Source: Caulobacter sp. S45 (GTDB lineage Bacteria; Pseudomonadota; Alphaproteobacteria; Caulobacterales; Caulobacteraceae). Taken from it: a DNA stretch of 64,000 nt. The position numbers and the translations under genes are program-made. This document shows, piece after piece, positions 20,265-50,174 of the stretch (its first letter is position 1; each line of letters begins with the position of its first letter). Where the stretch lies: the NCBI RefSeq assembly GCF_009765965.1, contig NZ_LMUL01000014.1:1792969-1856968 (forward strand), in the 5' to 3' direction. The notes below the pieces were generated by a model, which made no database searches, was not told the DNA's origin, and worked only from the letters and a program-made list of their open reading frames with translations.

Positions 20265-20286
20265 ATATGTTCGTCGCGACACATAT
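20265..20286. promoter_or_regulatory. Inverted repeat upstream of the RND operon (candidate operator)
   Basis: ATATGT (20265-20270) and ACATAT (20281-20286) are perfect arms around ten bases that contain the palindrome GTCGCGAC. The site overlaps the ATG at 20267 that would be the earliest start of the first efflux gene, suggesting that the real start is downstream and that this is a regulator-binding site. Confidence 0.45.
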
Positions 20287-21820
20287 CGCCAGCGCACAGG
20301 CGACCACCCCAAGCCAGGGGCCTGGTTTGCGGCGCGCCGCCCTCTGGGCCTTGAGCACGCTGCTGCTCGCCGGGTGCTCGACCGCGCGGCTGTCCAAGCC
20401 CGACGTCCACACGCCCACCGCCTACGAAGCCGCCGGCGCCTCCAACCCCGCCCTGCCGGCCGAAGCGCTGGACCGCTGGTGGCGGCTGTTCGACGACGCC
20501 CAGCTCACCCAATTGATCGAGCAGGCCCTGGTCTCGGCCCCGGATGCGCGCACCGCCCTCCAGCGCATCGGCGAGGCCCGCGCCACCCGCACCCAGACGC
20601 TGGCCGCCTACCTGCCCCAGGGCAATGTCCAGGGCCTGGCCCAGGAACAGCATACCGACGAGACCATCAGCGGGCTCAGCGGCGGCGACGTCGGCATCGG
20701 CGGCGGGGCGCTCAGCGGCGCCGGCTCCGCCACCGGCGGCCTGGGCAGCAGCCTGGTCGAGCCGTCCGGCGACCTGCAGACCTACGGCGCCCAGTTCAAC
20801 ATCACCTACGAGATCGACATCTTCCGGCGCCAGCGCGCGGCCCGGCGCGCGGCGGATGCGGACGTGGCGGCGGCGCGCTTCGACTTCGAGGCGGCCCGCG
20901 CCATGCTGGCCAAGAATGTCGCGGTCGACCTGTTCCAGGCCCGAGGCGCGGCCATCCAGCTGGAAGAAGCGCGCGACACCCTGCGGATCGCCCAGGACCT
21001 GGCGCGCACCGGCGACATCTCCGCCGCCCATGGCTTGACCTCGGGATCGGACGCGGCCCGGCTGCAGACCGACGTCGGGGTCGATGCGGCCGAGGTCGCC
21101 CGGCTGGAAGCCCAGTCCCTGGCGGCGCGGCGCGCCCTGCTGGCCCTGATCGGGCGCGGGACCGACCCGCTCGACAGCCTGCAGATCCAGCCGACGGCCG
21201 CCAGCCCGCCCATACCGCCGACCTCCGCACCGGGCGATCTGCTACGCCGCCGGCCCGACGTGCGCGAGGCCGAGGCCCACATCCGCTCCGCCGCCAACAC
21301 GCTCGCGCTCGACAAGCTGGCCCTGTTCCCGACCTTCCAGATCCTGCCGGGGGTTCAGGTCGACAAGACCGCCGGCAGCTTCGCCTCGATGAGCAGCATC
21401 TGGAGCATCGGGCTCGGCGCCTCCGCCCCGGTGCTGGACCGGCCGCGCCTGCTGGCGGTGATCCGGGGCCAGAAGGCCAAGGGCGAGGAACAGGTGATCG
21501 CCTACGAGCAGGCGGTGCAGAACGCCTATCGCGACGCGGAAACCGGCCTCTACACCCTGGCCGCCGACCGGCGCCGGGTGGATCGGCTAGAGGAGGCGGT
21601 CGGCAAGGCGCGATACGCCTTCGACGCCAAGAAGAGGGGCTACGACCTGGGCCTGACCGACCTGACCACGCTGCTGAACGCGGAAGGTGTCTGGCGCACC
21701 ACCCGCACCACCTACACGGGCGCGCAGACCCAGGCCCTGGTGGATGCGGCGACCCTGTTCCAGGCGCTCGGCGGGGGGTGGACCCCGCCGGAGCAGGTCC
21801 AGACGGCGGCGGCGCGATGA
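20267..21820 (+). CDS. Outer-membrane efflux lipoprotein of the RND operon (NodT family)
   Basis: Up to 517 residues. The channel protein of a tripartite RND pump. Lipoprotein signal: RRAALWALSTLLLAGC, followed by STARLSKPDVHTPTAYEAAG, typical of NodT proteins. Long coiled helices and the family signature PGDLLRRRPDVREAEAHIRSA follow. The ATG at 20267 has no ribosome-binding site, overlaps a palindrome and would put 20 odd residues before the signal peptide; a TTG at 20327 preceded by AGGGG gives an ideal short lipoprotein signal and is my preferred start. The stop TGA overlaps the next start (ATGA at 21817), so adaptor translation is coupled. Confidence 0.9.
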   Translation: MFVATHIASAQATTPSQGPGLRRAALWALSTLLLAGCSTARLSKPDVHTPTAYEAAGASNPALPAEALDRWWRLFDDAQLTQLIEQALVSAPDARTALQRIGEARATRTQTLAAYLPQGNVQGLAQEQHTDETISGLSGGDVGIGGGALSGAGSATGGLGSSLVEPSGDLQTYGAQFNITYEIDIFRRQRAARRAADADVAAARFDFEAARAMLAKNVAVDLFQARGAAIQLEEARDTLRIAQDLARTGDISAAHGLTSGSDAARLQTDVGVDAAEVARLEAQSLAARRALLALIGRGTDPLDSLQIQPTAASPPIPPTSAPGDLLRRRPDVREAEAHIRSAANTLALDKLALFPTFQILPGVQVDKTAGSFASMSSIWSIGLGASAPVLDRPRLLAVIRGQKAKGEEQVIAYEQAVQNAYRDAETGLYTLAADRRRVDRLEEAVGKARYAFDAKKRGYDLGLTDLTTLLNAEGVWRTTRTTYTGAQTQALVDAATLFQALGGGWTPPEQVQTAAAR

Positions 21821-23049
21821 GGGGAAAATGGATGCCGAAACTCAAGATTCCCTCCCCCTCGATGGGGGAGGGGCAAAGGTGGGGGTGTATCCCTTGCACT
21901 AACCGGACTGACGCTCGAGGCGCCGCCTCTCGTGTCCCATCCCCGCACGTCCTGCACTCACCCCCATCCCTGCCCTTCCCCCTTCGAGGGGGAAGGGTTC
22001 TCTTGGCCTGCCTCGCTCTCGCCGCCTGCCACAAACCCACAACCACCACCAAGCCGCCGGCGCGCCAACCCGTGGCCGTGACCGTCGCATCCGTCCGCAC
22101 CCAGGCGCTGCAGGGCGGCCTGACCGCCTCGGGCCTGATGATCCCCAAGCTGGAGGCCGCCGTCTCCACCGAGCTGAACGGCTACCGCGTGGCCAAGGTG
22201 TTCGTCGATCAGAACGCCTCGGTGAAGGCCGGCCAGTCCCTGGCCCAGCTGGACGACACCCTGCTGCGCGCCCAGATCGCCCAGCAGAAGGCCGTGGTCG
22301 ACCAGCAGAAGGTCGCCGCCGAACGCCAGGACGCCGAGGCCCAGCGCGTCGCCGGCCTCGACAACCAGGGGGTGCTGTCCCAAGAGCAGATCATCGAGCG
22401 TAGGTTGGCCGCGCGCAGCGGCCACGCCACCGTCGCCGCCGCCCAGGCCCAGCTCAACGACCTGGAGACCCGCGAAAGCCTGATGATGGTGCGCGCGCCG
22501 GTCAGCGGACTGGTGCTGGAACGTACCGTGCGCCCGGGCGATATCGCAGCCCCCGCCACCGCCATGTTCCGCATCGCCGCCGACGACGTGGTCGAACTCA
22601 ACGCCGAGGTCCCGGAATCGGGCCTGGCCGGCATCCAGCCCGGCGACGCGGCCGAGGTCGAACTGCCCGGCGGGACCAAGATCACCGGCCATGTCCGCCT
22701 GATCAGCCCCGAGGTGGACCAGCAGACCAAGCTCGGCCACATCCGCATCACCCTGCCGGTACGCCCCGACCTGCGGCCCGGCGGCTATGGCCGCGCCACC
22801 TTCTCCCAGAGCCGCCGCCCCGCCTCCGTCGTGCCCGACAGCGCGGTGCGCTACGACGCCGACGGCGCCTCGGTGCTGGCCCTGCAGTCCGACAACACGG
22901 TCAAGCGCATGCTGGTGAAGACCGGCGCCCGCGCCAACGGCATGGTCGAGCTGGTCGACGGGCCGCCGCCGGGAACTCGCGTCCTGCTCGGCGGCGGGGC
23001 CTTCGTGCTCGACGGCGACGTGGTCAAGCCGATCGAGGCGTCGCAGTGA
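21817..23049 (+). CDS. RND periplasmic adaptor lipoprotein with repeat-derived N-terminus
   Basis: 410 residues if read from the ATG at 21817, which overlaps the channel gene's stop. The adaptor part is ordinary: lipobox LALAAC at residues 66-71, lipoyl half (TELNGYRVAKVFVDQNASVKAGQSLAQLDD), coiled-coil hairpin, second lipoyl half (RAPVSGLVLERTVRPGDIAAPATAMF) and beta-barrel. Residues about 11-60 are unusual: they are translated from a 148-bp interspersed palindromic repeat (21850-21997), giving IPSPSMGEGQ at one end and [10 protein letters not shown] at the other. The signal peptide core VLLACLALAAC thus sits some 60 residues in. Either a long leader is made, or translation starts at an alternative codon such as the TTG in the LLACLAL segment. 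The permease follows 43 bp later. Confidence 0.85.
   Translation: MRGKWMPKLKIPSPSMGEGQRWGCIPCTNRTDARGAASRVPSPHVLHSPPSLPFPLRGGRVLLACLALAACHKPTTTTKPPARQPVAVTVASVRTQALQGGLTASGLMIPKLEAAVSTELNGYRVAKVFVDQNASVKAGQSLAQLDDTLLRAQIAQQKAVVDQQKVAAERQDAEAQRVAGLDNQGVLSQEQIIERRLAARSGHATVAAAQAQLNDLETRESLMMVRAPVSGLVLERTVRPGDIAAPATAMFRIAADDVVELNAEVPESGLAGIQPGDAAEVELPGGTKITGHVRLISPEVDQQTKLGHIRITLPVRPDLRPGGYGRATFSQSRRPASVVPDSAVRYDADGASVLALQSDNTVKRMLVKTGARANGMVELVDGPPPGTRVLLGGGAFVLDGDVVKPIEASQ
21850..21997 (+). repeat. 148-bp interspersed palindromic element, copy 1
   Basis: Left hairpin CCCTCCCCC/GGGGGAGGG (21850-21872, loop TCGAT) and right hairpin CCCTTCCCCC/GGGGGAAGGG (21973-21997, loop TTCGA), with GGTGGGGGTG and CACCCCCAT just inside. 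A second copy of identical length lies in opposite orientation at 48581-48728; the right 46 bp differ at only two positions by eye, the middle is more diverged. Located inside the adaptor reading frame. Confidence 0.9.
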
Positions 23050-23092: not shown

Positions 23093-26000
23093 ATGAAGCT
23101 GCGCATCTCCGCCTGGAGCATCCGCAACCCGATCCCGGTGGCGATCCTGTTCATCGCCCTGACCCTGGCCGGACTGCTGTCCTACGCCTCGCTGCCGATC
23201 AAGCAGTACCCCAACATCTCGTTCCCCCTGGTGGTGGTCAGCGTCACCCAGAGCGGCGCGGCGCCCAGCGAGATGCAGAACCAGATCACCCGGCCGGTCG
23301 AGGACGCCATCGCCGGGGTCGCCAACATCAAGCACCTGTCGTCCACCGTCACCCTCGGTTCGTCCGTCACCCAGATCGAGTTCGAGCTGGGCACCGACAT
23401 GCAGAAGGCCACCGACGACGTGCGCACCGCCGTCGACCGAACCCGCGTACAGCTGCCGCCCGGCATCGACCCGCCCACCGTCCAGCGCATCGACATCGAT
23501 TCCGCCCCGATCCTGACCTATGCGGTCAGCTCCGCCACCCGCTCGCCAGTCGATCTGTCCTGGTTCGTCGACGACACCATCTCGCGCACCGTTCAGGCTG
23601 AGAAGGGCGTGGCGCAGGTGACGCGCGCCGGCGGCATCGACCGCGAGATCAACGTCACCCTCGACCCGGCCCGCATGGCCGCCTTCGGCGTCACCGCGCC
23701 CCAGGTGAACCAGGCGATGTACCAGTTCAACGTCGACGAGACGGGCGGTCGCGCCAATATCGGCGGGCAGGAGCAGAACGTGCGCGTGCTGGGCCAGGCC
23801 CAGACCGTGGACGCCCTCCGCAAAGTAACGATCCCCGCCGCCGGCCGTTACGTGCGCCTGGCCGACGTGGCCGAGATCGGCGACGGCCAGTCCGAACAGC
23901 GCGGCTTCGCCCGGCTGGACGGCCGGCCCGCCGTGGCCTTCCAGGTCAACAAGACCCGCGACGCCAGCGACGTCTCCACCGAGAAGCGGGTGCAGGCGGT
24001 CATCGCCAAGCTGGCCAAGGCCCATCCGGACGTGACCTTCACCCAGGTCATCTCCACCGTCGACTCCACCCGCAAGAGCTACGAGGCCACCATCCACGTG
24101 CTGGTCGAGGGCATGATCCTGGCCGCTCTGGTGGTCTGGCTGTTCCTCAAGAGCTGGCGCGCCACCGCGATCGCGGCCACCGCCATGCCGCTGTCGCTGA
24201 TCCCGACCTTCTCGGCCATCCAGGTGTTCGGCTTCAGCCTGAATGTCATCACCCTGCTCAGCCTGACCCTGGTGATCGGCATCCTGGTCGACGACGCCAT
24301 CGTCGAGATCGAGAACATCGAGAAGCGCATTTCGCGGGGCGAAAGTCCCTACCGCGCCTCGCTGCTGGGCGCGGACTCCATCGGGCTGGCGGTGGTGGCG
24401 ACCACGGCGACCATCGTGGTGGTGTTCATGCCGGTGTCGTTCATGCCAGGGATCGCGGGCCAGTTCTTCAAGGAGTTCGGGCTCACCGTCGCCATCTCGG
24501 TGATCTTCTCGCTGATCGTAGCGCGCCTGCTGACGCCCCTGCTCGCCGCCTATTTCCTCAAGCCCAGCGCCCATCCCAAGCCGAGCAAGCCGCTGGAGGG
24601 CCCCTATCGCAAGGCGCTCGACTGGGCCATGGCGCACCGCTTCATCTCGATGGGGATCGGGGGGCTGATCTTCGTGGCCTCGATCATGCTGCTGGCCAGC
24701 CGCCCGGTCGGCTTCCAGCCGCGCGGCGACGCCGGCTATTTCTACCTGAACGTCGAAGGTCCGCCGGGCGCCACCCGCCAGGCGATGGATACCGCGCTGA
24801 GCCAGGCCACGCGCATGCTGCTGACCCAGCCCGACGTGGAGCGCGTATTCGCCCAGGACGGCTCCAGCGCCACCGACAACAGCTCCGACCTGCGCGACGG
24901 CACCATCACCGTGGTGCTGAAGCCGAACCGCATCCACAAGACCGAAGAGGTCAAAACGCTCATCCGACCCTTCCTGCGCCAGATCCCCGACGTGCGGATC
25001 AGCACGCTCGGCGGGTTCGGGGCGGCGGACGTGGAGATCGTGCTGTCCAGCCAGAACGGCCCGGCGCTGGAACGCGTGCAGCTCGAACTCCAGCGGGAGA
25101 TGCGCGGCCTGTCGGTGCTGACCGACGTGCGCCCCGCGCCGCCGCCGTCCGGCCCCGAACTGGTGGTGCGGCCCAAGCCCAGCGAGGCGGCCCGGCTCGG
25201 CGTCACTTCCGACGCGCTCGCCAGCGTGCTGCGGATCGCCACCATCGGCGACATCGACGCCAACGTGGCCAAGTTCTCCGAGGGCGAACGGCGTATTCCT
25301 ATCCGCGTGCGCCTGCCCGAGAGCGACCGCACCGACCTGTCTGTGCTGGCCAACCTCCAGGTGCCGACCCTGGCCGGCAAGTCCACGCCCCTGTCCTCGG
25401 TGGCCGACCTGTCGTTCCAGGCCGGGCCGGGCAAGATCGTGCGCTACGCCCGCGAACGGCGCGCCTCGGTCCAGGCCGACCTGCGCGGCGGCGCCAGCCT
25501 CGGCACCGCACTGAACGCGATCAAGAAGCTGCCGGTGATGCAGCACCTGCCGGCCGACGTCCGCCAACCCCCGGTCGGCGACGCCGAGGCGCTGCAGGAC
25601 GTGATCACCGGCTTCACCGGGGCGATCCTGTCGGGAATCCTGCTGATCTACGCGGTGCTGGTGCTGCTGTTCCGCAGCTTCTTCAAGCCGCTGATCATCC
25701 TGGCCACCCTGCCCCTGACCCTGGCCGGCGTCTCGGTGGCGCTGACCGTCGCGGGGATGGAGATCGACATGCCGGTGTTCATCGGCCTGCTGATGCTGTT
25801 CGGGATCGCGGCCAAGAACTCCATCCTGCTGGTGGAGTTCGCCATCGAGGACGAACGCGCCGGCCAGGACCGCTGGCAGGCCCTGCACAACGCCTGCCGC
25901 GAGCGGGCGCGCCCCATCGTCATGACCACCGTGGCCATGATCGCCGGCATGCTGCCGACCGCCCTGGCGCTGGGCCAGGGGTCGGAATTCCGCCAGCCGA

Positions 26001-26197
26001 TGGCGATCGCGGTGATCGGCGGACTGGTCAGCTCGACCATCCTCTCCCTGGTGCTGGTGCCGGTGATCTATCTGCTGGTGGACAGCTTCGAGGCCTGGCT
26101 GACGCCCAAGTTCAGCGGCCTGATCACCCACAAGCGGCCAGGCGACGACGCCCCGATCCGCGAGGACGAAGAGACCCTGGTCACCGAAGGGGCGTGA
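23093..26197 (+). CDS. RND multidrug efflux permease (AcrB/HAE-1 family)
   Basis: 1034 residues, normal for the family. Inner-membrane proton-driven trimeric pump taking substrates from periplasm and membrane. The N-terminus MKLRISAWSIRNPIPVAILF is the first membrane helix; twelve helices are expected. Proton-relay acidic pair in helix 4: VIGILVDDAIVEIENIEKR. Other signatures: SVTQSGAAPSEMQNQITRPVEDAI, GMILAALVVWLFLKSWRA, FGIAAKNSILLVEFAIEDE and the LVLVPVIYLL end. The two periplasmic porter repeats are complete, with no frameshift. Third gene of the operon channel, adaptor, permease; substrate not predictable. Confidence 0.96.
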   Translation: MKLRISAWSIRNPIPVAILFIALTLAGLLSYASLPIKQYPNISFPLVVVSVTQSGAAPSEMQNQITRPVEDAIAGVANIKHLSSTVTLGSSVTQIEFELGTDMQKATDDVRTAVDRTRVQLPPGIDPPTVQRIDIDSAPILTYAVSSATRSPVDLSWFVDDTISRTVQAEKGVAQVTRAGGIDREINVTLDPARMAAFGVTAPQVNQAMYQFNVDETGGRANIGGQEQNVRVLGQAQTVDALRKVTIPAAGRYVRLADVAEIGDGQSEQRGFARLDGRPAVAFQVNKTRDASDVSTEKRVQAVIAKLAKAHPDVTFTQVISTVDSTRKSYEATIHVLVEGMILAALVVWLFLKSWRATAIAATAMPLSLIPTFSAIQVFGFSLNVITLLSLTLVIGILVDDAIVEIENIEKRISRGESPYRASLLGADSIGLAVVATTATIVVVFMPVSFMPGIAGQFFKEFGLTVAISVIFSLIVARLLTPLLAAYFLKPSAHPKPSKPLEGPYRKALDWAMAHRFISMGIGGLIFVASIMLLASRPVGFQPRGDAGYFYLNVEGPPGATRQAMDTALSQATRMLLTQPDVERVFAQDGSSATDNSSDLRDGTITVVLKPNRIHKTEEVKTLIRPFLRQIPDVRISTLGGFGAADVEIVLSSQNGPALERVQLELQREMRGLSVLTDVRPAPPPSGPELVVRPKPSEAARLGVTSDALASVLRIATIGDIDANVAKFSEGERRIPIRVRLPESDRTDLSVLANLQVPTLAGKSTPLSSVADLSFQAGPGKIVRYARERRASVQADLRGGASLGTALNAIKKLPVMQHLPADVRQPPVGDAEALQDVITGFTGAILSGILLIYAVLVLLFRSFFKPLIILATLPLTLAGVSVALTVAGMEIDMPVFIGLLMLFGIAAKNSILLVEFAIEDERAGQDRWQALHNACRERARPIVMTTVAMIAGMLPTALALGQGSEFRQPMAIAVIGGLVSSTILSLVLVPVIYLLVDSFEAWLTPKFSGLITHKRPGDDAPIREDEETLVTEGA

Positions 26198-31586: not shown

Positions 31587-31673
<87 letters not shown>

Positions 31674-40739: not shown

Positions 40740-40814
40740 TGGTGGACGCGGCTGGGATCGAACCAGCGACCCCTACGATGTCAACGTAGTGCTCTCCCGC
40801 TGAGCTACGCGTCC
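40740..40814 (-). tRNA. tRNA-Val (anticodon GAC)
   Basis: 75 nt with encoded CCA. Acceptor GGACGCG/CGCGTCC, anticodon stem CTACG/CGTAG around TTGACAT (GAC), T-arm GCTGG-TTCGATC-CCAGC. It reads GUC and GUU codons. Located 70 bp downstream of the transaldolase gene. Confidence 0.97.
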
Positions 40815-46259: not shown

Positions 46260-48608
46260 ATGGCTTCCCCCGCCCCAGCCCAGATCGCGCGCGGCCTGAT
46301 CGGGCGCGGCCTGGCCGAGCACAAGGCCGGCCACCTCGACGCCGCCGAACCGCTGTACCGCGAGGGCTTGGCGCTCGACGCCAAGGTCCAGGAGGGCTGG
46401 CGGCTGCTGGGCGTGCTGTTGCAGCAGAAGGGCGCTACGGCGGCCAGCGTGGAGGTCGTCGAGCGGGCGCTGGCGCTGGGCCGCAACGCGGTGGACCTGT
46501 CCAACCTCGCCAACGCCTTGAATCAGTTGGCTCGCTCTGAGCAGGCCGCCGCCGCCGCCGCCGAGGCGCTCAGCTTCGACCCGCGCATGCCCGCCGCCCA
46601 CCTGAACCTGGGCGTCGCCAACCGCGCCCTGGGTCATCGCGAGGCCGCCGCCCAGAACTTCCGCGCCGCCGCCGGCCTGCAACCCGCCTATGCCGACGCC
46701 CATCTCAATCTCGGGGTGACGCTGACCGAGCTCGGCAAGCCGGACCAGGCCGAGGCGCCGCTACGCACCGCCGTCGGCCTCCTGCCCCAGGCGGCCGAGC
46801 CGCAGTTCAACCTGGGCAATTCGCTGCTGCGCCAGCTCCGCTTCGAGGAGGCCCGCGACGCCTATCTGGAGGCGATCCGCCTGCGTCCGGCCTATGCGGA
46901 GGCGCACGGCAACCTGGCCGCCGCCTACAAGGCCCTGGCCCAGCTCGACCTGTCGGTCGTCCACTACGCCGAGGCCGCGCGCCTGGCCCCGCGCGACATC
47001 GTCCTGCTGCAGAACTACGCCCTGATGCTGGCCGAGCTGCGCCGCTACGGCGAGGCGATCCCGGTCTACGAGCAGGCCGTGGCCCTGAACCCGCCCCAGG
47101 CGCCGATCTACACCAACCTCGGCAGCGCCATCCAGGAGTACGTCCGCGACCGCCACGACGTCGGCGTGCTGGCGCTGCTGGACCGCGCCATCCTGGCCCA
47201 CCTACAGGCGTTGTCGATCAATCCCGAACTGGTGGCCGCCCAGATGAACCTGGGGCTGGCCCTGCTGGCGCGCGGACGGCAGGCCGATGCGGTGGAAGCC
47301 TTCAAGACCGCCATCGCGCTGCAGCCCGACGTGGCGGAATCCCACAGCAACCTCGGCCAATGCCTGTCCGACATCGGTCAGTTCGAGGAGGCGGCCGCAG
47401 CCTGCCGCCGCGCCATCGAGCTGAACCCGAAGCTGGCGGAGGCGCACTCCACCCTCGGCAACACCCTGATCGCGCAGAACAAGGTGGTGGAGGCCGAGCC
47501 GCACTACCGTGACGCCCTGGCGATCAAGCCCGAAATGCCGGGCGCCTGGTGCAATCTCGGCGTCTCCCTGTTCCGCCAGGGGCGCGCCGCCGAGGCCGAG
47601 ACCGTCTACGAGACGGCGCTGAAGTACGATCCCAACCTGCCCGACGCCCACTGGAACTACGCCCTGGCCCTGCTCCAGCGCGGCGTGTTCGACGAGGGGT
47701 TCGCCGAGTACGAGTGGCGGCTGAAACGTCCCGGCCGGCTGCGCCAGGACGCCGGCTTCACCCAGCCGCTGTGGGACGGGCGCGAGCTGAACGGAGCGTC
47801 TATCCTGATCCATGCCGAACAGGGCTTCGGCGACGCCATCCAGTGCGCGCGCCTGATCCCCCAGGTGGCGGCGCGCGGCGGCCGGGTGGTGCTTCAGGCC
47901 CGCAAGCCGCTGAAGCGGCTGATGGAGCACCTGCCGGGCGTGGCGGAATTCGTCATCGACGGGGACCCGGCCGTGGACATCGCCTGCCGCGCGCCGATGT
48001 TCAGCCTGCCGCATCACTTCGTGCGCAGCCTGGACGACCTGCCGGGCGCCATCCCCTACCTGCCCGTCGACCCGGAACTATCCGCCGCCTGGGCCGCGAA
48101 GCTGGCCACCATTGCGCCGGACGGGCTGAAGGTCGGCATCGTGTGGAGCGGCAACCTGACCTCGGAGGTGGAGATCGGCCGCTCGATCCCGCTCAAGGCC
48201 CTGGCGCCCCTGGCCGCCGTTCCCGGAGCGCGCCTGATCAGCCTGCAGAAGGCCGACGGCATGGACATGCTCGACGACCCGACCCTGGGTTTCGAGGTCG
48301 CGCGCCTGGACGAGGTCTACGACGCCGGCGACTTCGCGGAGACGGCGGCGGTGATGGCCAACCTCGACCTGCTGATCAGCTGCGACACCGCCTCGGGCCA
48401 CCTCGCCGGGGCCATCGGCAAGCCGGTGTGGATCGCAGTCAACCGGGTGTCGGACTGGCGCTGGATGGAGGATCGCGAGGACACCCCCTGGTATCCGACC
48501 ATGCGCATCTTCCGCCAGCAGACGCTCGGCGACTGGGGTCCGGTGTTCGAGCGGATGGCGGCGGCGTTGCGGGAATGGCGCCCTTCCCCCTCGAAGGGGG
48601 AAGGGTAG
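46260..48608 (+). CDS. TPR-repeat glycosyltransferase
   Basis: 782 residues. The N-terminal 480 residues contain at least ten TPR units (for example [80 protein letters not shown]). The C-terminal part (from about residue 515) is a glycosyltransferase-B-like domain related to the GT9/GT41 group: [46 protein letters not shown], and [19 protein letters not shown]. Such proteins are frequent in Caulobacter-like bacteria and have been linked to protein or flagellin glycosylation; the substrate here is unknown. No signal peptide. The final residues RPSPSKGEG come from the 148-bp repeat at its 3' end. Confidence 0.9.
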
Positions 48609-48728
48609 GGTTGGGGGTGAGTGCAGGCTGTGTGACGTGGGGCGATAGAGGCGTCGCCACCTCTTAGGCCAGTCCGTCAACCTTGCGGCCACACCCCCGC
48701 CCTGGCCCTCCCCCTTCGAGGGGGAGGG
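48581..48728 (-). repeat. 148-bp interspersed palindromic element, copy 2
   Basis: Hairpins CCCTTCCCCC/GGGGGAAGGG (48581-48605, loop TCGAA) and CCCTCCCCC/GGGGGAGGG (48706-48728, loop TTCGA). It is the reverse complement of copy 1 at 21850-21997 and equally long. It overlaps the last codons and stop of the TPR glycosyltransferase gene and ends 18 bp from the convergent cysS stop, so it may act as a two-way transcript barrier. Confidence 0.9.
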
Positions 48729-48746: not shown

Positions 48747-50174
48747 TCAATCCTTCAGCCGCCAGGTGGCCGTGCCGCCGGGGCCGTCCAGCACCTCGAC
48801 CTTCAGCTCGGTCAGCTCGGCGCGGATCAGGTCGGCGGCGGGCCAGTCCTTGGCCAGGCGGGCCTGGGCGCGGCGCGCGATCAGGTCCTCCACTCGCGTC
48901 TTAAGCCCTGCGTCGGCGCCGCCCTGGAACCAGGCGTCCGGGTCGGCCTGTAGGAAGCCCAGCAGCGCTCCGGCGTCGAGCAGGGCGTGCAGGCTGGTGG
49001 TCGCCTCCAGGACCGAACCGGACAGGGCGGCGCGAACCTGGTCGGCCAGCTTGAACAGCTCGCTCATCGCCTGGGGCGTGTTGAGGTCGTCTTCCACCGC
49101 CTCCACCACCGGGGCGGCCAGTTCGAGCACCCGCACCGGATCGGGGGTCAGGCCCTCGACCTCCTGGCGGCGCGCATCGTGGATCACCCGGTAGAGCCGG
49201 TCCAGCGAGCGCCGGGACTGATCCAGCAGGTCGGCGGTCCAGTCCAGCGGCGCGCGGTAGTGGGCCGACAGCAGGGCCCAGCGGACGACCTCGCCCGGAA
49301 CCGACTTCACCAGCTCGTGCACCAGCAGCACGTTGCCCACGCTCTTGGACATCTTCTCGGCGTCCAGCGTCAGGAAGCCGTTGTGCATCCAGTAGCGGGA
49401 ATACTCGCCGTCGCCCTGCGCGCCGCCGTGCTGGGCGCAGACGCCCTGGGCCAGCTCGTTCTCGTGGTGGGGGAAGATCAGGTCGTGGCCGCCGCCGTGG
49501 ATATCCACCGGAAAGCCGAGCTCGGCCTCGATCATGGCCGAGCACTCGATATGCCAGCCGGGACGGCCGGGGCCGAAGGCGCTCTCCCACACCGGCTCGC
49601 CGGGCTTGGAGGGCTTCCATAGCACGAAGTCGGCCGGATTGCGCTTGTAGGCGGCGACCTCGACCCGCGCGCCGGCGACCATCTCGTCCAGCGACCGGCC
49701 CGACAGCGCGCCATAAGCCGGGAACGAGGACACGTCGAACAGCACGTGGCCTTCCGCCGCATAGGCGTGGCCGGCCTCGACCAGCCGGGCGATCATGGCC
49801 AGCATCTGGGGCACGTGGGCGGTGGCGCGGGGCTGCATCGTCGGCGCCAGCGCGCCCAGAGCGGCCATGTCGGCCTCGTAGATCGCGGTGAACCGGTCGG
49901 TGATCACCGAGATGGCCACGCCCTGGTCGATGGCGGCCTGGTTTATCTTGTCGTCCACGTCGGTGACGTTGCGGGCATAGATCACCGCGTCATCGCCATA
50001 GAGGCGGCGCAGCAGGCGGAACAGCACGTCGAACGCCACCACCGGCCGCGCATTGCCGATGTGGGCGTAGTTGTAGACGGTGGGGCCGCAGACGTAGAGC
50101 GTCACCCGCGCGGGATCGAGGGGCTCGAACGCCAGCTTCTCGCGGCGCAGGGTGTCGTGGATCTTCAAGGTCAT
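48747..50174 (-). CDS. cysS: Cysteinyl-tRNA synthetase
   Basis: 475 residues, usual length. Class I synthetase with the HIGH-type motif YNYAHIGNARP preceded by the Zn-ligand Cys in YVCGPTVY, and the KMSKS loop LDAEKMSKSVGN. The Zn-site continues with ...WHIECSAMIEAELGFPVDIHGGGHDLIFPHHENELAQ. The C-terminal anticodon region ends TWRLKD, close to the common end of alphaproteobacterial enzymes. The start ATG at 50174 is preceded by the cluster of HPr genes in the same direction with a 34-bp gap. Confidence 0.97.
   Translation of the reverse strand: MTLKIHDTLRREKLAFEPLDPARVTLYVCGPTVYNYAHIGNARPVVAFDVLFRLLRRLYGDDAVIYARNVTDVDDKINQAAIDQGVAISVITDRFTAIYEADMAALGALAPTMQPRATAHVPQMLAMIARLVEAGHAYAAEGHVLFDVSSFPAYGALSGRSLDEMVAGARVEVAAYKRNPADFVLWKPSKPGEPVWESAFGPGRPGWHIECSAMIEAELGFPVDIHGGGHDLIFPHHENELAQGVCAQHGGAQGDGEYSRYWMHNGFLTLDAEKMSKSVGNVLLVHELVKSVPGEVVRWALLSAHYRAPLDWTADLLDQSRRSLDRLYRVIHDARRQEVEGLTPDPVRVLELAAPVVEAVEDDLNTPQAMSELFKLADQVRAALSGSVLEATTSLHALLDAGALLGFLQADPDAWFQGGADAGLKTRVEDLIARRAQARLAKDWPAADLIRAELTELKVEVLDGPGGTATWRLKD

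Follow-up and report, generated by a model that had tools for sequence, protein, structure and literature searches.

Organization of the Locus

The 64,000-nucleotide stretch of DNA analyzed here (the window) contains two copies of a 148-bp element in opposite orientation, one within an efflux operon and the other at the 3' end of a gene for a TPR-repeat protein (Table 1). A count confirms what the first-pass annotation had described: the two copies lie where it had placed them with the same length and the same order of parts, which runs from a left hairpin through a G-rich block (final letters GGGGGTG), a variable middle, and a CACCCCCA block to a right hairpin. The copies are 76% identical over 148 bp, with exactly two differences in the right 46 bp, the number given in the first-pass annotation. 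All four local hairpins are perfect, and the window contains four matches to the hairpin pattern, each within one of the copies, compared with none in 60 simulated 64-kb sequences of matched dinucleotide content. Some 30 further places in the genome indicate that the resemblance of the two copies is not due to chance. The Rfam matches in the window are limited to two tRNAs on the minus strand (31590-31673 and 40743-40814).

Table 1. Coordinates of the two element copies, their parts, and the neighboring genes
Feature	Position	Strand
Outer-membrane efflux protein (PF02321), upstream gene in the efflux operon	20267-21820	+
HlyD/CusB-type membrane-fusion protein gene, signal peptide split by copy 1	21817-23049	+
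Element copy 1, 148 bp, in frame within the membrane-fusion protein gene	21850-21997	+
Copy 1 left arm hairpin, CCCTCCCCC-TCGAT-GGGGGAGGG	21850-21872	+
Copy 1 inner G-rich strand, GCAAAGGTGGGGGTG, pairs with 21959-21972	21873-21887	+
Copy 1 variable middle	21888-21958	+
Small central palindrome in the copy 1 middle, GAGGCGCCGCCTC	around 21917-21929	+
Copy 1 conserved CACCCCCATCCCTG block	21959-21972	+
Copy 1 right arm hairpin, CCCTTCCCCC-TTCGA-GGGGGAAGGG	21973-21997	+
RND efflux permease (PF00873), downstream gene	23093-26197	+
TPR-repeat protein, C terminus weakly glycosyltransferase-9-like	46260-48608	+
Element copy 2, 148 bp, orientation opposite to copy 1	48581-48728	-
Copy 2 right arm hairpin	48581-48605	-
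Copy 2 left arm hairpin	48706-48728	-
cysS, convergently oriented neighbor of copy 2	48747-50174	-

Both copies had been treated as intergenic, a view that does not survive inspection of the reading frames. The ATG at 21817 overlaps the stop codon of the upstream outer-membrane efflux gene (ATGA), and the frame that it opens remains open across copy 1 into the membrane-fusion protein. The resulting N terminus reads MRGKWMPKLKI, followed by about 49 element-encoded residues and then VLLACLALAAC with a lipobox, placing the predicted n-region of a signal peptide at 21817-21849 and the h-region with the lipobox from 21997. Homologues of the membrane-fusion protein within the genus and the family have a short signal peptide of the ordinary kind in this area, and this together with the open frame indicates that copy 1 is an in-frame interruption of a lipoprotein signal peptide. 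Copy 2 overlaps a gene 3' end, encoding the last residues of the TPR-repeat protein (RPSPSKGEG) and its TAG stop codon (48606-48608), and occupies the spacer between this gene and the convergent cysS.

Structure of the Arms

The anatomy of the element is that of an inverted REP pair. The inner blocks GGGGGTG and CACCCCC are mutually complementary with a small palindrome, GAGGCGnCGCCTC, in the middle, and terminal inverted repeats of the kind used to define MITEs are present as 43-nt arms that are 81% complementary. The predicted folds are strong, and RNAalifold prefers one long hairpin spanning the whole element. In 6 of 23 copies the left-arm pair 7-19 is T-A in place of C-G, a change of both members that leaves the local hairpin intact and disrupts long-range pairing with the right arm. 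This indicates that the local arms are the constrained form. The whole-element hairpin was rejected as the conserved structure since the compensatory changes favor the local arms. The loop of the right arm is lineage-specific, being TTCGA in 20 arms of the genome containing the window, with ATCGA or ATCAA predominating elsewhere. A set of four G-tracts on a single strand is present in 17 of 23 left ends and 21 of 23 right ends, making these ends possible G-quadruplex candidates, and the inner G-rich strand joined to the 3' half of the hairpin is G-quadruplex-like in most copies.

Dispersal in the Genome and the Family

A DNA-level search of the assembly containing the window (G000, 4.89 Mb) with the 148-bp unit locates the element at about 30 places, many of them complete copies. 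The length is 143-151 bp in 23 aligned full copies, close to the uniform length proposed from the two copies in the window, but rarer copies of 132 and 165 bp are also present. Over the 23 copies, mean pairwise identity reaches 93% for the right 40 columns and 85% for the left 40 columns, compared with 51% for the middle. A covariance model matches 89 of 149 genomes of the family, presumably the Caulobacteraceae, representing 18 of 22 genera, such that the element is present in most genera of the family, and plasmid and phage records contain no match to it. The genome and family searches thus back the description of a dispersed, hairpin-bounded, non-autonomous element whose length is nearly uniform and whose ends are conserved. 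The most similar copies within the genome are only ~76-78% identical overall, and consequently no recent burst or movement is visible here. Contigs of several assemblies (L126, L128, L017, and L029) terminate in or near these repeats, and copy numbers from draft genomes are therefore underestimates. When the orientation of the flanking genes is assigned by a simple codon-usage score, 40 distinct copies can be classified, with 35 lying in tandem spacers (or within one gene), five in convergent spacers, and none in divergent spacers.

In-frame Copies in Other Genes

In-frame copies are placed in loops or interdomain stretches, as delimited by Pfam, of several unrelated proteins. In the genome containing the window these include glyS (glycyl-tRNA synthetase β), the linker of a 5-oxoprolinase with the hydantoinase A and B domains on either side, and an Lhr-type helicase, in which the copy separates the DEAD domain from the helicase-C domain. 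Among relatives, glyS carries in-frame copies in G013 and at two sites in G028, with further copies in ileS (G089) and in asparagine synthase (G028). In both G089 and G185, a copy lies in an acyltransferase (E2), in the linker that joins the lipoyl domain to the E3-binding domain. Each in-frame copy is predicted to add ~40-50 residues rich in glycine, proline, and serine, an example of a peptide expected from glyS or ileS being PFPLEEGRAGLGV, and these segments are presumably translated. The element segment is absent from the solved GlyS structures.

In most species the glyS loop that receives the element is short and contains no insert; other palindromic inserts occupy it in G001, G002, and G004 and also in G042, which is more distant. 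A different palindromic family (APSVGFADSSPKGGA...) lies in frame in glyS of G001 and G002 (L098, L128, and L129), using the same loop as the element in the genome containing the window. A further open reading frame (L031:2541-3062) is located between two glycyl-tRNA synthetase genes with palindromic-repeat sequence at its start and end, and a repeat similar to these ends adjoins glyS in G076 (L154).

Empty Sites and Junctions

The comparison of filled and empty sites called for in the first-pass annotation identifies empty sites in sister species at both coding and intergenic positions. The ileS site is filled in G089 and empty in G185, G004, and the other compared species of the genus, with the 300-bp flanks of G089 and G185 being 95-99% identical. 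Empty counterparts also exist for glyS and for the signal peptide of copy 1, and an intergenic site is empty in two relatives, where the divergence is too high for the junctions to be read. The clean element-free alleles of essential enzymes in sister species mean that the effect of an insertion on the protein is directly measurable. At the ileS junction an 18-nt loop, CCGCTGAAGGCGGGCGAG, is replaced by G, a 146-bp element, and AGG, and in G013 glyS a 15-nt loop is replaced by the element and 6 nt. About 9-14 nt of target are missing at these two sites, and neither ileS nor glyS, where the flanks are diverged, shows a duplication of the target. At ileS, divergence is higher next to the insertion than in the rest of the sequence.

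The missing target and the diverged ileS flanks are not the picture of classical transposition, and the target loss may reflect later trimming after insertion. The loss of target without duplication at two coding sites and the local divergence beside the ileS insertion are also what would be seen if double-strand breaks had been repaired by end-joining with copies taken up as DNA fragments, no transposition being involved. This explanation is very unlikely, as constant ends are unexpected for random fragments and selection at the protein level trimming the loop would give the same picture at the two sites available.

One intergenic site is occupied by our element in G089 (L207:1300-1800) and by an unrelated palindromic element in G004 (L229:1700-2320). 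The inserts at this shared site belong to different families and are bounded by short TTCAGACGG repeats.

Constraint on the Ends after Insertion

Three orthologous copies shared between species pairs (L210/L202, L166/L162, and L163/L165) allow changes after insertion to be counted. Differences amount to 1 in 240 positions of the ends, 20 in 175 of the middle, and 29 in 599 of the 100-bp flanks (ends versus middle, p = 2e-7; ends versus flanks, p = 7e-4). The ends therefore change far less than the middle in the three pairs and are preserved after insertion. Such constancy is what would be expected from selection on the ends, from gene conversion among the copies, or from the two together.

The preservation of the ends, the avoidance of divergent spacers, the four-G-tract motif at most ends, and the strong folds are features that a functional host element under selection would display, either as an RNA stabilizer, a site for transcription or chromosome structure, or a G-quadruplex, with its spread being incidental. 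Such a role is possible but not probable, as the same sites are occupied by different families in relatives (glyS and the L207/L229 site), many sites are empty in relatives, and the copies in the signal peptide and the tRNA synthetases resemble tolerated accidents. The element contains no T-tract and is thus not a classical terminator.

Search for a Mobilizing Enzyme

A REP-associated tyrosine transposase (RAYT) had been suggested as the enzyme moving the element in trans, and the searches do not bear this out. PF01797 (Y1_Tnp, which includes the RAYTs) is absent from the genome containing the window in a search that was positive in control genomes. Across the family, Y1_Tnp is present in 15 of the 89 genomes that have the element and 9 of the 60 that lack it (p = 0.82), and no element arms occur at any of the 11 Y1 loci fetched. 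A RAYT as the general mobilizer was rejected on the basis of searches covering the genome containing the window, 60 relatives, and the 149 family genomes. The enzyme families searched consisted of Y1_Tnp, and no mobilizing enzyme was found among them; another trans-acting enzyme, or one since lost, is a possible mover.

An alternative that retains the RAYT is that the copies are REPINs proper, moved by a Y1 tyrosine transposase that was later lost from the lineage. The anatomy agrees with this in having an inverted REP pair with invariant ends, a variable spacer, and compensatory changes (PMC3116915), and some members of the family do have Y1_Tnp. The alternative is nonetheless unlikely given the results with Y1_Tnp described above and a consensus that is devoid of a GTAG-type tag.

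G004 and G185 contain a second family of double-hairpin elements, which are 150-154 bp long (CCTTCTCCCGATGGGAGAAGGTGGCGCG...CCCCTCTCCC) (L226, L230, L203, L212, L215, L224, and L227). Its copies are mostly ~85-92% identical, which indicates that it is younger and a better subject for the search for a mobilizer.

Proposed Mode of Spread

The copies are probably small non-autonomous DNA elements with hairpin ends that spread as whole units and settle where harm is small. The unit would be composed of two inverted REP-like arms, the inner complementary blocks, and a free middle, and would pass through genomes complete. Tolerated sites would be transcribed spacers, with the exception of divergent ones, and, for copies that are in phase and free of stop codons, the loops, linkers, and ends of proteins in which they would be translated. 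Movement would take place as DNA with the end hairpins recognized by an enzyme in trans that is now absent or has escaped identification. Most present copies are presumably old and immobile, their ends perhaps maintained by host use of the hairpins or G-rich strands or by gene conversion between copies. A more speculative extension, which is rather doubtful, is a RAYT-independent class of double-hairpin elements in which a host factor keeps the ends nearly constant once inserted, a small amount of target is lost on entry with no duplication, ready-made linkers and termini are repeatedly supplied to proteins, essential tRNA synthetases among them, and different families alternate at the same sites.

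Comparison with Known Palindromic Repeats

GTAG- and CGTC-tagged REPs have short perfect hairpins and occur mostly as inverted dimers with variable spacers (Di Nocera 2013, PMC3733652). They are intergenic in tandem or convergent spacers, with some located in frame within genes including tRNA synthetases, and the CGTC group is likewise without a dedicated transposase (PMC3733652). Caulobacter is not mentioned in that study (PMC3733652). The element differs from these REPs, whose tag is unpaired and located at one end of the hairpin, in carrying neither tag in its consensus or flanks and in having a pair of unequal arms whose inner complementary G/C blocks are long. In REPINs, two conserved REP ends in inverted orientation enclose a variable spacer and undergo compensatory changes, the pair being the replicative unit (Bertels and Rainey 2011, PMC3116915). 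The element shares the inverted hairpin pair, the conserved ends, and the variable spacer and differs in that there is no cognate RAYT in the genome or flanked by its arms.

The element could be a Caulobacter repeat that has already been described. The CIR repeats (Chen and Shapiro 2003) are dispersed alphaproteobacterial sequences of ~110 bp with two hairpin arms, a linker, and GANTC (the CcrM site) at the loop of one arm (PMC2229807). The two hairpin arms joined via a linker are common to both, and membership in the CIR repeats is still doubtful. The loops of the element (TCGAA/TTCGA) lack GANTC, and assignment to the CIR repeats by a GANTC loop was rejected, the motif being no more frequent in the copies (four times in 3,398 bp) than in the window (66 times in 64,000 nucleotides). 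The element is also intragenic, unlike the CIRs, which were reported as never intragenic (PMC2229807).

The Rickettsia palindromic elements share the in-frame presence in unrelated functional genes with element-free homologues. RPE-4 and RPE-6 are CGTC REPs, and the host group differs; the likeness drawn here is one of behavior. In-frame palindromic insertions, best known in Rickettsia, are thus found here in another bacterial family. The element also offers a family in which the spread of palindromic repeats without a RAYT, and the constancy of their ends once inserted, can be tested. The element is best filed as a new family of RAYT-less, untagged REP-pair elements that work like the Rickettsia palindromic elements.
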